Source: Pseudomonas hamedanensis (GTDB lineage: Bacteria > Pseudomonadota > Gammaproteobacteria > Pseudomonadales > Pseudomonadaceae). From it: a stretch of 64,000 nt of DNA. This document shows, piece by piece, positions 1 through 52,534 of the stretch; the first letter of the stretch is position 1, and every line of letters begins with the position of its first letter. The stretch is taken from assembly GCF_014268595.2 (NCBI RefSeq), contig NZ_CP077091.1:766501-830500 (forward strand). Reading direction: 5' to 3'. The notes beneath the pieces were generated by a model, which searched no databases, had not been told where the DNA came from, and saw nothing but the letters and a program-made list of their open reading frames with translations. Made by a program: the position numbers and the translations under genes.

Positions 1-1108
1 CTGACCCGGCGCTTTCGCGAGCAAGCTCACTCCTACAGTTTTTTATAGTGTCAGGAGGTTGTGTGTGCGGCGGGAGTCCATGTGGGAGCGGGCTTGCTCG
101 CGAATGCAATCTGGCAGTTGGAGAAGTGCTGACAGACCCGGCGCTTTCGCGAGCAGGCTCACTCCTACAGGTGCTTTTGTGGTGTCAGCAGGTTGTGTGT
201 GCGGCGAAAATCCATGTGGGAGCGAGCTTGCTCGCGAAGGCGATCTGTCAGTTGGAGAAGTGGCGACTGACCCGGCGCTTTCGCGAGCAAGCCCGCTCCC
301 ACAGGTGTTTTTGTGGTGTCAGCAGGGTGTGTGTACGGCGGCAATCCATGTGGGTGCGGGCTTGCTCGCGAAGGCGTTCTGTCAGTTGGAGCAGTGTTGA
401 CTGACCCGGCGCTTTCGCGAGCAAGCCCGCTCCCACAGGTGTTTTTGTGGTGTCAGCAGGTTGTGTGTGTAGCAGGAATCCATGTGGGAAGCGGGCTTGC
501 TCGCGAAGGCGATCTGTCAGTGGGTGAAGTGTTGACTGACCCGGCGCTTTCGCGAGCAGGCTCACTCCCACAGGTGTTTTTGTGGTGCAGGTTGTGTGTG
601 CGGCGGCAATCCATGTGGGAGCGGGCTTGCTCGCGAAGGTAATCTGGCAGTTGGTGAAGTGCTGACTGACCCGGCGCTTTCGCGAGCAGGCTCACTCCTA
701 CAGGTGTTTTTGTGGTGTCAGCAGGTTGCGTGTACGGCGGCAATCCATGTGGGAGCGGGCTTGCTCGCGAAGGCAATCTGTCAGTGGGTGAAGTGTTGAC
801 TGACCCGGCGCTTTCGCGAGCAGGCTCACTCCTACAGGTGTATTTGTGGTGTCAGGAGGTTGTGTGTGCAGCGGCAATCCATGTAGGAGCGGGCTTGCTC
901 GCGAAGGCGATCTGTCAGTTGGAGAAGTGCTGACTGACCCGGCGCTTTCGCGAGCAGGCTCACTCCTACAGGTGTTTTTGTGGTGTCAGCAGGTTGTGTG
1001 TGCGGCGAAAATCCATGTGGGAGCGGGCTTGCTCGCGAAGGCGATCTGGCAGTTGGTGAAGTGTTGACTGACCCGGCGCTTTCGCGAGCGAGCCCGTTCC
1101 CGCAGGTG
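1..1108. repeat. Tandem REPIN array, eight units of about 134 bp
   Basis: Eight near-identical units of 131-135 bp follow one another. Each holds a forward REP arm (GTGGGAGCGGGCTTGCTCGC type, beginning near 80, 214, 348, 484, 614, 749, 882 and 1016), a spacer of about 40 bp, an inverse REP arm (CTTTCGCGAGCAGGCTCACTCC type, nine copies) and a linker rich in TGTGTGTG. The two arms of a unit are complementary, as in Pseudomonas REPINs. The array starts at the window edge, so its left end is not visible. The last inverse arm, near 1078-1105, is more diverged. No gene is credible here; the short overlapping frames are repeat translations. Confidence 0.93.
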
Positions 1109-49046: not shown

Positions 49047-50234
49047 ATGCGCTATTCAGCCTTGACCCAACGAATCGCCGGGGAGGGTGCCGCGGCCTGG
49101 CAGATTCACGACCGAGCGCTGGAACTGCGCGCCGAAGGTGTCGACGTTTTGTTGCTCAGCGTGGGCGATCCGGATTTCGACACGCCGTTGCCGATTGTGC
49201 ATGGCGCCATCGACAGCCTGTTGGCCGGCGATACGCACTATGCCGACATTCGTGGCCGGCTCGAGCTGCGCAGGCTGATTGCCGAGCGCCATTGCCAGCG
49301 CAGCGGTCAGCGCGTTGATCCGGACCAGGTGATTGTCCTGCCCGGCGCGCAATGCGCGGTGTATTCGGTGGCGCAGTGTCTGCTCGATCCGGGCGACGAA
49401 GTGATCGTTGCCGAACCGATGTACGTCACTTACGAGGGCGTGTTTGGCGCTTGCGGGGCCACGGTGATTGCGGTGCCGGTGCGGCCGGAAAACGCTTTTC
49501 GCGTCGACCCTGTAGATGTTGCCGCGCGAATCACATCAAAGACCCGCGCCATACTGCTCTACAGTCCGAACAACCCCAGTGGCGCAAGTCTGTCACTGCC
49601 GATCTGGCAGGCACTGGGTGCACTGTGCATTCGTCACGATTTGTGGCTGATCAGCGACGAGGTCTACAGCGAGCTTTTATATGAAGGCCAACACATCAGC
49701 CCGGCGAGCCTGCCGGGCATGGCCGAACGCACGGCGACGATCAACAGCCTGTCGAAATCCCATGCGATGACCGGTTGGCGCATCGGCTGGATGATCGGGC
49801 CGAAACCGTTGGCTGAGCATTTGGTGAACCTGTCGCTGAGCATGCTGTTCGGTCTGCCCGATTTTGTGCAAAAGGCTGCGCAGGTTGCCTTGGAGAGTGA
49901 CTTGCCCGAAGTGGCGCAGATGCGTGAGGAGTACCGCTTGCGCCGGGATCTTGTGTGCGAGCGTTTGCGCGATTGCCCGGGGCTGCGGCCGATTCGTCCG
50001 GATGGCGGCATGTTCGTCATGGTCGATGTCCGCCAGACCGGCCTCGGCGCCCAGGCGTTTGCCGAGCAGTTGCTGGAAGGCTATGGCGTGTCGGTGCTTG
50101 CCGGCGAAGCATTCGGGCCGAGCGCGGCGGGGCACATTCGGATCGGGCTGGTGGTGGATCGGGTCAAACTGGCGGATGCCTGCGCGAGGATTGCGTTGTG
50201 TGCGGTGCAGCTGTTGCAAGCGCGTAGTGCCTGA
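49047..50234 (+). CDS. aruH: Arginine--pyruvate transaminase AruH-like aminotransferase
   Basis: A 395-aa fold-type I PLP aminotransferase. The N-terminus MRYSALTQRIAGEGAAAWQI and LLLSVGDPDFDTP closely recall P. aeruginosa AruH. The PLP Lys is in SLSKSHAMTGWRIGW near 236, with SPNNPSG near 174 and SDEVYSELL near 208. AruH transfers the alpha-amino group of L-arginine to pyruvate. The start at 49047 has AGGAG upstream. aruI, which normally follows, is absent; an IS element sits directly downstream. A different amino-acid substrate is possible. Confidence 0.8.
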   Translation: MRYSALTQRIAGEGAAAWQIHDRALELRAEGVDVLLLSVGDPDFDTPLPIVHGAIDSLLAGDTHYADIRGRLELRRLIAERHCQRSGQRVDPDQVIVLPGAQCAVYSVAQCLLDPGDEVIVAEPMYVTYEGVFGACGATVIAVPVRPENAFRVDPVDVAARITSKTRAILLYSPNNPSGASLSLPIWQALGALCIRHDLWLISDEVYSELLYEGQHISPASLPGMAERTATINSLSKSHAMTGWRIGWMIGPKPLAEHLVNLSLSMLFGLPDFVQKAAQVALESDLPEVAQMREEYRLRRDLVCERLRDCPGLRPIRPDGGMFVMVDVRQTGLGAQAFAEQLLEGYGVSVLAGEAFGPSAAGHIRIGLVVDRVKLADACARIALCAVQLLQARSA

Positions 50235-50257
50235 AAAATTTGTATTGTTTGATCCGG

Positions 50258-50278
50258 CCCTTCGCGAGCAAGCCCGCT
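50258..50278. repeat. Left part of a REP split by the IS110 element
   Basis: The inverse arm runs to CTTCGCGAGCAAGCCCGCT and stops there. Its missing end, CCCACAGG, appears on the far side of the IS at 51447 onwards (with a shared CT). Confidence 0.85.
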
Positions 50279-50294
50279 TGTATGGTTAGACTTG

Positions 50295-50380
50295 AAGGGG
50301 TGGTGGGACGAACAGTTCGCATCTGACTGCTGTAACAGTACAGACCGTGGGAGACCTCGCCCCACCCCTTCCACCAAAAG
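50295..50380 (+). ncRNA. Candidate bridge RNA (seekRNA) target loop of the IS110 element
   Basis: In the transposase leader AAGGGGTGG (50295) pairs perfectly with CCACCCCTT (50362), enclosing 58 nt. On the 3' side of this loop is GTGGGAG (50347-50353), the exact complement of the target bases CTCCCAC across the right insertion junction. IS110 elements are known to use a leader RNA whose loops pair with target and donor. Full extent and the second loop are not resolved. Confidence 0.4.
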
Positions 50381-50480
50381 CGCCGATAGAGAATGCTTCG
50401 TTCAAGCGACGATAGAAACAAGCCTGCGCCTCTGGGTGAAACCCCTACAAGCTGTAAAACCTTAGCGTGGAGAAGTGCCA

Positions 50481-51431
50481 GTGGCAATGCGCGTGTCGAA
50501 GGCAATCGTGGGCGTGGACGTCGCCAAAGCTGAACTCGTTATTTATTTAGCAGATCCAGATCTGCTCACCTCGATAACCAATGAAAAGCTGGCCATAAAG
50601 CGCTGGCTTAAAACATTGGCGGGGCCCACTGCGATAGCTGTTGAGGCGACAAATATTTATCACGTCGACTTGGTTGAGTTGGCTCATGAGTCAGGTCACG
50701 ACGTCTACATCATCGACGGTTTTCAACTAAGTAATTATCGTAAAAGTATCGGTGGTCGCAGTAAAACGGACGCATCTGACGCCCGTCTTCTCGCCCGTTT
50801 TTTAAAAAACGAAGGTGAGGATCTGCGACCTTGGACCCCACCTCCGGCAGTCTACGGCAAGCTGCAAAGCCTTCTACGACGCAGAGCTTCGCTGATACGG
50901 GCCAAAACCAGCCTGACCCAGAGCTGGGCAAATGACGCCAGTTTGAAAGGCGTGTTCGCAACTTTCATAAAGTCTATAGAACGGCTGGATTTACTTGTTC
51001 AGAAAAAACTCAAGGAAGTCTTGCGCGAAGCTGGTTTGCTGGAAGAGGTTGCCAGATGCCAAGCCATCGAAGGTATAGGTTTTCTAACTGCAACTGCTTT
51101 GGTCATGGCATACAACCGAGGCGACTTTACCAGCGGGGACTCTTATATAGCGTTCTTAGGCATGGACCTGAGAGTGAGTGACTCGGGTCAAAAAAATGGC
51201 CGTAGATATTTAACCAAGCGAGGATGCTCGGAGGTACGTCGATTACTGCATAACGCCGCCATGTCAGCCTGCCGATCAAATGCCTGGAAAGAGTTCTACA
51301 ACCATCATCTCAGTTGCGGAAAAGCGACTACACAGGTGCTGGTGATGCTCGGCCGTAAACTTGCTCGAATAGCGTTCGCCCTGATGAAAAACCAGAGCGA
51401 ATACCAATCGAAAGGGGGAGTTATGGCTTGA
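50481..51431 (+). CDS. IS110-family transposase (DEDD recombinase)
   Basis: About 316 aa from a GTG at 50481, which has GGAG eight bases upstream; an ATG at 50487 is the alternative. The N-terminal DEDD RuvC-like domain shows IVGVDVAKAEL, AVEATNIYH and GRSKTDASDARLLARFL. The C-terminal Transposase_20 domain has AIEGIGFLTATALVMA and the putative catalytic Ser in LHNAAMSACR. Intact and probably active. Its codon use is more AT-rich than neighbouring genes, consistent with transfer. Confidence 0.94.
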   Translation: MAMRVSKAIVGVDVAKAELVIYLADPDLLTSITNEKLAIKRWLKTLAGPTAIAVEATNIYHVDLVELAHESGHDVYIIDGFQLSNYRKSIGGRSKTDASDARLLARFLKNEGEDLRPWTPPPAVYGKLQSLLRRRASLIRAKTSLTQSWANDASLKGVFATFIKSIERLDLLVQKKLKEVLREAGLLEEVARCQAIEGIGFLTATALVMAYNRGDFTSGDSYIAFLGMDLRVSDSGQKNGRRYLTKRGCSEVRRLLHNAAMSACRSNAWKEFYNHHLSCGKATTQVLVMLGRKLARIAFALMKNQSEYQSKGGVMA

Positions 51432-51446
51432 TGACAACCATAGAAT

Positions 51447-51536
51447 CTCCCACAGGTGACCGCATTCCAAGGTGCGGGCTTGCTCCCACAGTTGAAATGC
51501 ATTCCCCTGTGGGAGCGAGCTTGCTCGCGAAGGCGG
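51447..51536. repeat. Right part of the split REP and its partner arm
   Basis: CTCCCACAGG completes the REP interrupted by the IS. Further on are a partial GCGGGCTTGCTCCCAC and a complete forward arm GTGGGAGCGAGCTTGCTCGC, so the IS sits inside a former REPIN. Confidence 0.85.
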
Positions 51537-51556
51537 TTTAGCAGACGCCGAAAGCC

Positions 51557-52534
51557 TCAGCCCTGCCAAGCGGTGGGATTCACCAGATTCGCCGGCCTTT
51601 CCCCACCCAGCGCCGCCAGCAGATTCTCCACCGCACACCGCGCCATCGCCTCACGCGTCTCATGCGTTGCCGAGCCCATATGCGGCGTCGCCACCACATT
51701 ACTCAACTGCAACAACGGCGAGTCATGGTTCAGCGGCTCGCGCTCAAACACATCCAGCCCCGCCGCGCGAATGCGCTTGTTGGCCAAGGCATCGATCATC
51801 GCCGCTTCATCGACTACTTTACCGCGCGAGATATTGATGAAAATGCTCTCCGGTCGCATCAGCGCAAACTGCTCGGCGCCGATCAGTCGTTCAGTCTGCG
51901 CCGTCAATGGCAAGGTCAGGCAAATGAAATCGGCCTGCTTGAGCAAATCCTCGAGGCTGCGATATTGCGCGTCGAAACGTTCCTCGACCGCCGGTTTGCG
52001 CGACTGGCTGTGGTAGATCACCGGCATGCCGAAGCCGAAATGCCCACGCTGGGCCAGGGCCTCGCCGATGCGGCCCATGCCGATGATGCCCAGCGTCTTG
52101 CCGTGCACGTCGGTGCCGAAATGCGCCGGGCCGATGTTGCGACTCCATTGCCCGCCACGCACCATGTTGGCCAGTTCGACCACACGCCGGGCAGCGGCGA
52201 GGATCAGGGCGAAACCGGTGTCGGCGGTGGTTTCGGTGAGCACATCAGGAGTATTGGTGAGCAGGACGTTGCGTCGGCTCAGGTAATCGATGTCGTAGTT
52301 GTCGACACCTACCGAGACGCTGGCAATCGCCTCCAGTTGCGGCGCGAGATCCAGCAGCGCCGCATCGAGTTTCAGGCTGGCGCCGAGCAAACCGTGGGCG
52401 CGGGGCAGGGCATCGCGAAGTTGCATGAGGCCGTCGGCGTCGAGGCTTTCGATCAGCGTCACGTCAAACTGCTCTTGCAGCCGCACCATCAGCGCTGGCG
52501 AGAGTTTCTTGTACAGCACGATGTGTTTTTTCAT
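51557..52534 (-). CDS. kguD: 2-ketogluconate-6-phosphate reductase KguD
   Basis: A 325-aa D-isomer-specific 2-hydroxyacid dehydrogenase. NAD(P) motif LGIIGMGRIGEALAQRG near residue 147, substrate Arg in INISRGKVVDE near 231, and catalytic Glu and His in VFEREPLNHDSPLL and ATPHMGSATHETR. It is last in kguE-kguK-kguT-kguD, where it reduces 2-keto-6-phosphogluconate to 6-phosphogluconate. GhrB/TkrA-type activity is the alternative reading; the operon decides. Confidence 0.92.
   Translation of the reverse strand: MKKHIVLYKKLSPALMVRLQEQFDVTLIESLDADGLMQLRDALPRAHGLLGASLKLDAALLDLAPQLEAIASVSVGVDNYDIDYLSRRNVLLTNTPDVLTETTADTGFALILAAARRVVELANMVRGGQWSRNIGPAHFGTDVHGKTLGIIGMGRIGEALAQRGHFGFGMPVIYHSQSRKPAVEERFDAQYRSLEDLLKQADFICLTLPLTAQTERLIGAEQFALMRPESIFINISRGKVVDEAAMIDALANKRIRAAGLDVFEREPLNHDSPLLQLSNVVATPHMGSATHETREAMARCAVENLLAALGGERPANLVNPTAWQG

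Follow-up and report, generated by a model that had tools for sequence, protein, structure and literature searches.

A predicted bridge RNA in the left end of a REP-inserted IS110-group element of Pseudomonas hamedanensis

The element and its insertion site

The window, that is the whole stretch of 64,000 nucleotides of Pseudomonas hamedanensis DNA analysed here (NZ_CP077091.1, positions 766,501 to 830,500), carries an IS110-group insertion sequence, the features of which are collected in Table 1. The 6.05 Mb genome contains three identical copies of the element, including the one in the window. Comparison of the copies revealed that each interrupts a REP and has CT at both junctions. Empty orthologous sites in two relatives (G016 and G019) hold an intact REP with a single CT; four relatives were tried for this alignment, and only two (loci L165 and L167) were alignable over the site.

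Table 1. Features of the IS110-group element (positions in the window)
Feature	Position	Strand	Basis or remark
IS110-group insertion sequence	50279..51446	+	1168 bp; starts TGTATGG, ends CCATAGAAT; three copies alike inside, flanks differ
Left CT core	50277..50278	+	Closes REP left half (AAGCCCG-CT); three-copy comparison and empty orthologous sites
Right CT core	51447..51448	+	Followed by REP right half CCCACA; three-copy comparison, empty sites, junction sequence
Right end CATAGAAT, donor half	51439..51446	+	Common to the relatives read
Predicted bridge RNA, two stem-loops	50291..50441	+	Alignment of 36 leaders and covariance model; RNA ends inferred
Target-loop outer stem, 5' arm	50294..50303	+	Pairs with 50362-50371; arm-swap test
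Left target guide CAGTTCG	50313..50319	+	Columns covary with left target over 112 insertions
Core-facing bases CA of left guide	50320-50321	+	Directly after CAGTTCG
Hairpin between both target guides	50322..50344	+	Conserved; helix 3, 94.1% of cells paired
Right target guide GTGGGAG	50347..50353	+	Complement of CTCCCAC
Target-loop outer stem, 3' arm	50362..50371	+	Pairs with 50294-50303; arm-swap test
Donor loop closed by GCGC/GCGC	50380..50429	+	Helix 5, 98.4% of cells paired
Candidate left donor guide AGAGAAT	50388..50394	+	6/7 with right end ATAGAAT; sequence match only
Candidate right donor guide ACAAG	50418..50422	+	Complement of CT-TGT; sequence match only
IS110-family DEDD transposase/recombinase	50481..51431	+	316 aa from GTG 50481; matches to PF01548, PF02371, NF033542, IS621 and ISCro4

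The preliminary description of this locus, made from the letters of the sequence, had likened the element to the IS110 group by its long 5' leader and very short 3' end. This likeness holds: the leader measures about 200 nt, and the stop codon is 15 nt away from the core. The group is also indicated by the duplicated CT core, by the absence of long terminal repeats (only a 5-bp CCATA/TATGG lies near the ends) and by the predicted RNA in the long left non-coding end. In contrast, the IS1111 group is defined by subterminal inverted repeats of 7-17 bp and an RNA in the right end, and here the repeat measures 5 bp and the 3' end 15 nt.

Another complete REP in opposite orientation (window 51508-51531) lies about 60 bp beyond the insertion, indicating that the target REP belonged to a cluster. 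Elsewhere in the window (14-1104), about 16 REP copies alternate in orientation, with a 134-bp unit repeated about 8 times. PADLOC returned no match. In plasmid records, all 1073 matches were below 60% identity, and the 40 listed were relatives at 26-31% only.

The transposase gene

The start codon GTG 50481 was chosen by homologue length, while the open reading frame list begins at GTG 50475. The product matches IS110 models in both Pfam and NCBIfam, and the only PDB sequences matched at E <= 0.001 are the IS621 and ISCro4 transposases. These two were also the first structural matches of an AlphaFold2 model (mean pLDDT 79), followed by TIGR-Tas proteins. Across 46 aligned sequences, residues D13, E55, D97, D100 and S235 (numbering from GTG 50481) do not vary; they correspond, as judged from the alignment, to the published IS621 residues. 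The DEDD (RuvC-like) domain, Transposase_20 and the catalytic serine of the IS110 family are thus all present, the model being of low confidence around the serine (pLDDT <50 at residues 231-246, which include it).

A conserved two-loop fold in the leader

A perfect 9-bp stem between 50295-50303 (AAGGGGTGG) and 50362-50370 had been noticed in the leader at the outset. It is present as described, and a G-C pair at 50294/50371 extends it to 10 bp. Compared with shuffled sequences, 50291-50441 folds with modestly greater stability (z -2.06; 10 of 200 shuffles as good), and taken alone this fold of the window leader is weak evidence.

Relatives were therefore of interest for the covariance folding that the preliminary description had proposed as a check. 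A transposase match at E <= 1e-60 was found in 51 of 398 Pseudomonas genomes. In total, 123 transposase placements at 121 loci were read and 36 distinct leaders aligned; the regions read were 80 + 3 + 30 automatic loci, among the matches listed, with at most the best five candidates scored per genome. The resulting covariance model of two stem-loops matches 70 of the 398 genomes, among them all 51 with the transposase, so that a conserved two-loop fold, as expected of a bridge RNA, was indeed recovered. Among the 19 model-matching genomes beyond these 51, the cases inspected had the gene cut by contig ends or assembly gaps (e.g. G046) or lacked it (G298).

Of the cells in 47 distinct rows, 86.6% are paired, compared with 39.5-53.8% after sliding by 1-3 columns; for helix 4, which forms the outer donor stem, the figure is only 59.9%. 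Both-sided changes occur at 12 of 32 pairs versus 5.9 in shuffles, and pair types are not in excess (26 versus 24.0; 78 of 500 shuffles equally high), both counts being made on an alignment fitted to the structure. With the unadjusted alignment, the covariation term of RNAalifold was only -1.11 kcal/mol. The RNAalifold structure from this raw alignment, with both-sided changes at 3 of 23 pairs, was rejected because its outer stem was mis-registered; for this reason the structure was set by hand and the arms were also tested by swapping. Arms of the GGGAGGAGG clade reach about -26 kcal/mol with their own partners and about -19 to -21 with partners from two other clades, and swaps between these two other clades made little difference. 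Across all arms, the real pairing was equalled in 3 of 20000 permutations. No Rfam family matched 49800-52000 at E <= 1.

Some leaders deviate from the common arrangement. At one locus (G091, L025) the leader is just 119 nt long and the donor-loop motif was not found, with an intact transposase frame adjoining. At another (G298, L192), a REP-like site contains the target-loop leader in full, with no adjoining transposase and no recognisable right end, and a search of that genome at E <= 1e-5 found no relative of the transposase gene. A putative transposase-less multicopy derivative in G046 was rejected, as runs of N within the element mark an assembly gap.

Both target guides covary with the insertion site

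The loop inside the outer stem holds GTGGGAG (50347-50353), the exact complement of CTCCCAC at the right junction (51447-51453), as had been pointed out earlier. GTGGGAG occurs anywhere in a 202-nt leader in 2.2% of 20000 first-order random leaders, and this 7-nt match taken alone is weak evidence. The reading as a right target guide gains its force because the same loop at the same place in relatives covaries with the target. GTGGGAG accompanies CTCCCAC in 100 of 104 insertions. The remaining four (three CTCCTAC and one CTCTCAC) differ by G:T-compatible bases, and they are the only cases of the same loop bases in targets without CTCCCAC, the observation that would have spoken most directly against a guide. 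GTAGGAG is found with CTCCTAC in 4/4 copies in G094 and in one in G355. G080 speaks against the rule, since GTGAGAG faces CTCCCAC with one mismatch in 4/4 copies. With wobble counted, the right guide pairs at all 7 positions in 108 of 112 insertions.

The left target guide, to which the preliminary description could assign no position, was placed at 50313-50319 and tested by covariation. It was defined by the 9 nt before the conserved hairpin, which were compared with the 9 nt ending in the left core. Both ends were recognised in 117 rows, to which four G080 copies (right end beyond the piece read) were added; L007 and L010 are uncounted. After same-genome rows with equal flanks and L011 (no left flank) were dropped, the set comprised 112 insertions in 41 genome/contig units with 17 distinct 7-mers. 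L009 and L028 probably represent one insertion in a single genome present in duplicate, and one element is common to G004 and G139.

Mean identity between left guide and own target over positions 1-7 was 5.93/7, versus 4.83 when permuted (0/20000 as good). Collapsed to distinct guides, the values were 5.61 and 4.23 (0/20000), and register shifts of 1-8 either way gave an identity of at most 2.88. Pairing including wobble covers all 7 positions in 63 of the 112 insertions, 6 in 36, 5 in 8, 3 in 4 and 2 in 1. Genomes outside the rule-setting behaved alike: 30 loci yielded 24 further rows (L153 and L159 were without the hairpin motif as searched; L140, L150, L155 and L157 gave none, L155 and L157 being read separately), of which 10 paired at 7 positions and 11 at 6, with one each at 5, 4 and 3, wobble counted. 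A distant element outside both sets (G355) has the left guide TACGCGG and the target GTCGCGG. The guide of G382 fits only at one base off register, and poor fits were found in G186 (2/7) and G091 (3/7). With G080, G382, G186 and G091 as exceptions, both target guides are hence complementary to the target and covary with it, which answers in the affirmative the earlier question whether guide bases follow the flanks at other insertions. The flanks of L031 in G186 look rearranged, the left one being a repeat of the right (CTCCCACATTTGGTAG), and the left target misfits the guide.

For the left guide of the window element, Watson-Crick pairing with the three REPs covers 5, 4 and 4 of 7 positions, rising to 6, 6 and 5 when wobble is allowed; among the 17 guides, this one comes 5th or 6th for these targets. 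No sites of the form CAGYYCGCTCYCAC were found in the genome of the window element. The same guide CAGTTCG is present in G066 and G334; in one G334 copy, of which the right side lies beyond the contig, the left target reads CAGTCCG and is complementary at 7/7 with one wobble. The likeliest explanation is that the guide was picked up in a host whose REP dialect was different.

Choice among REP variants

Five REP variants, picked after the targets had been seen, were counted in 40 genomes, and 86 of the 112 insertions lie in a counted variant, the 26 in other left targets being left out. The best-fitting variant was used in 67 of the 86, compared with 49.2 expected from abundance (0/50000). Omission of two rows with a right half outside the counted pattern gave 65/84 (1/100000), and when each genome was left out in turn the excess stayed at least 13.6. 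Genome units lie above expectation in 26 of 34 cases (sign test p 0.003), while eight (G139, G205, G266, G289, G300, G333, G382 and G384) under-use their best-fitting variant. Wobble fits occur among these, namely the AGGCTCG guide in AAGCTCG (G205, G266, G289) and AAGCCGG in AAGCCAG (G333). This test controls for host REP content, and the permutation test does not. The label "off-REP", at one time given to some insertion sites, was withdrawn, as those sites may be REP variants.

The donor loop

The preliminary description had left the donor loop unplaced. The element ends hardly vary among the relatives read, so the loop is assigned provisionally to 50380-50429, with its two candidate guides, by sequence and the IS621 pattern. 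Because the GCGC-closed loop does not include it, a second ACAAG motif near 50445 was dropped as right donor guide. In the 103 rows with G at target position 7, the right donor guide is followed by C 102 times and by T once; in the rows with C at this position, the following base is G in four (G080) and T in four (G139 and G004), one row (G091) being unreadable. Two changes, of which one is complementary, thus suggest the published handshake pairing.

A weak promoter could form at the circle junction (TTGATG-17-TATGGT, 4/6 in each box; other elements have 3-5/6 in the first box), and a search of the linear locus found none. In the four G080 copies (L041/L095-L097), the right end is several hundred bases longer and includes a REP-like stretch ending GGCCTCCCACG.

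Interpretation and alternatives

Taken together, it is highly probable (roughly 0.93) that the left non-coding end of the element encodes a bridge RNA, which the DEDD recombinase uses to enter a REP at CT. The suggestion made at the outset, that the leader acts as a bridge RNA with a guide matching its REP target, is thereby supported for a predicted RNA. It draws on the gene family, the boundaries, the CT junctions and empty sites, as well as on the conserved fold, the guide-target covariation and the use of REPs beyond their abundance. The IS110 family is already known to use a bridge-RNA mechanism, of which the window element is a well-supported new example. By analogy with published IS110-family work, from which we infer that the RNA is made and bound, the left non-coding end would give rise to the bridge RNA, and its second (donor) loop would pair with the joined ends of the element itself. 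The recombinase and the RNA would then recombine the excised circle with a REP at the CT dinucleotide, leaving CT at both junctions; donor pairing, the circle and the order of these steps are predicted on the same grounds. Such a mechanism would explain the residence of these elements in REPs.

One objection is that the recombinase protein alone recognises REPs and the likeness of the leader is coincidental or captured REP sequence. Such recognition would fit the REP-like character of nearly all targets seen and the inheritance of both host REP type and element lineage. It leaves unexplained, however, why the choice within a genome tracks the guide beyond abundance, why guide similarity drops at a shift of one base and why the guides occupy fixed places within a conserved fold, so that we regard it as very improbable. 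A chance match of GTGGGAG and the stem in one leader is less credible still. The frequency of the 7-mer in random leaders (2.2%) and the z of -2.06 for the single-sequence fold would have allowed it, but it is already contradicted by the conserved position and the covariation seen in relatives.

It is similarly improbable, at about the level of recognition by the protein alone, that the leader is mainly a structured 5'-UTR controlling transposase translation. There is a precedent in ISPpu9, for which the cited sections report this kind of control (PMC8450116), and the leader here likewise precedes the gene; yet translational control alone predicts no covariation between loop bases and insertion site. 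A double role of the leader, as guide RNA and in translational control, is compatible with the data.

Core pairing and comparison with known systems

Bridge RNAs have been published for IS621 and one has been predicted for ISPpu10, according to the cited part of PMC11208160. IS621 and the window element share the recombinase fold, the CT core, an RNA in the left end with the target loop before the donor loop, and the left guide on the 5' side with the right guide on the 3' side, as far as the cited sections describe them (PMC11208160; PMC11208158). The two differ in protein sequence (identity about 23-25%), and the model obtained here begins directly at the target-loop stem, without a 5' stem-loop.

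A further difference concerns the core. Right guides end in AG in 112/112 rows, so that both core bases are paired. The bases that left guides present to the core are AT, CA or AA in 102/112 rows and CT in 10/112; by genome unit (n=40) there are 27 AT, 8 CA, 3 CT and 2 AA, and the 24 further rows give 15 AT, 4 CA and 5 CT. Judged from these bases, the left guide would usually pair just one of the two core bases, whereas the left guide of IS621 pairs both in the cited account (PMC11208158), an arrangement found here in the 10 rows with CT.

We propose only tentatively, and with more doubt than belief, that this clade follows a pairing variant of its own, in which the right guide pairs CT fully, the left usually leaves one core position unpaired (102/112), guides follow the REP dialect of the host and the handshake base shifts with target position 7. 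If guides follow each host's REP dialect, the REP repertoire of a genome shapes the guide. The core mismatch, if true, may prevent recombination of the element's own leader or may aid strand exchange. It is absent from the published IS621 pairing scheme and can be tested. A literature search found neither this mismatch pattern nor an abundance-controlled test of REP choice, and both may still be published. These elements form a natural series of one family with 17 left guides in hosts with countable REP variants, which makes guide-directed choice separable from site abundance, and they offer ready guide-target pairs on which the tolerance of mismatches can be tested.

Insertion of ISPpu9, ISPpu10 and ISPa11 into REPs has been known since 2006, and ISPpu10 sits in REPs with 2-bp repeats, as the cited sections state (PMC1525189). 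ISPpu10 (Pseudomonas putida, IS110 family) resembles the window element in its REP site and predicted bridge RNA and, through proteins bearing its name, in transposase sequence; the window element has a guide of its own. ISPpu9 is similar by description in its host genus, IS110 family, REP target and long structured 5'-UTR; unlike the window element, it is described with AG as its repeat, with one RNA antisense to the leader and with another RNA downstream, the two small RNAs being Asr9 and Ssr9 (cited parts of PMC8450116 and PMC1525189). The seekRNA of ISEc21 (IS110 type) lies upstream of tnp and has segments matching both target strands, and natural retargeting is reported for related elements in the portion of PMC11187229 cited. 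By these descriptions, ISEc21 is alike in the position and matches of its RNA and is set apart by another transposase length class and another target.

Proteins named ISPpu10 in databases share 84% identity (82% of the query covered) and 69% identity with the transposase of the window element. In addition, an 81% identical protein (P0020) is filed under mulberry (Morus notabilis), probably as a result of bacterial contamination of the plant assembly.
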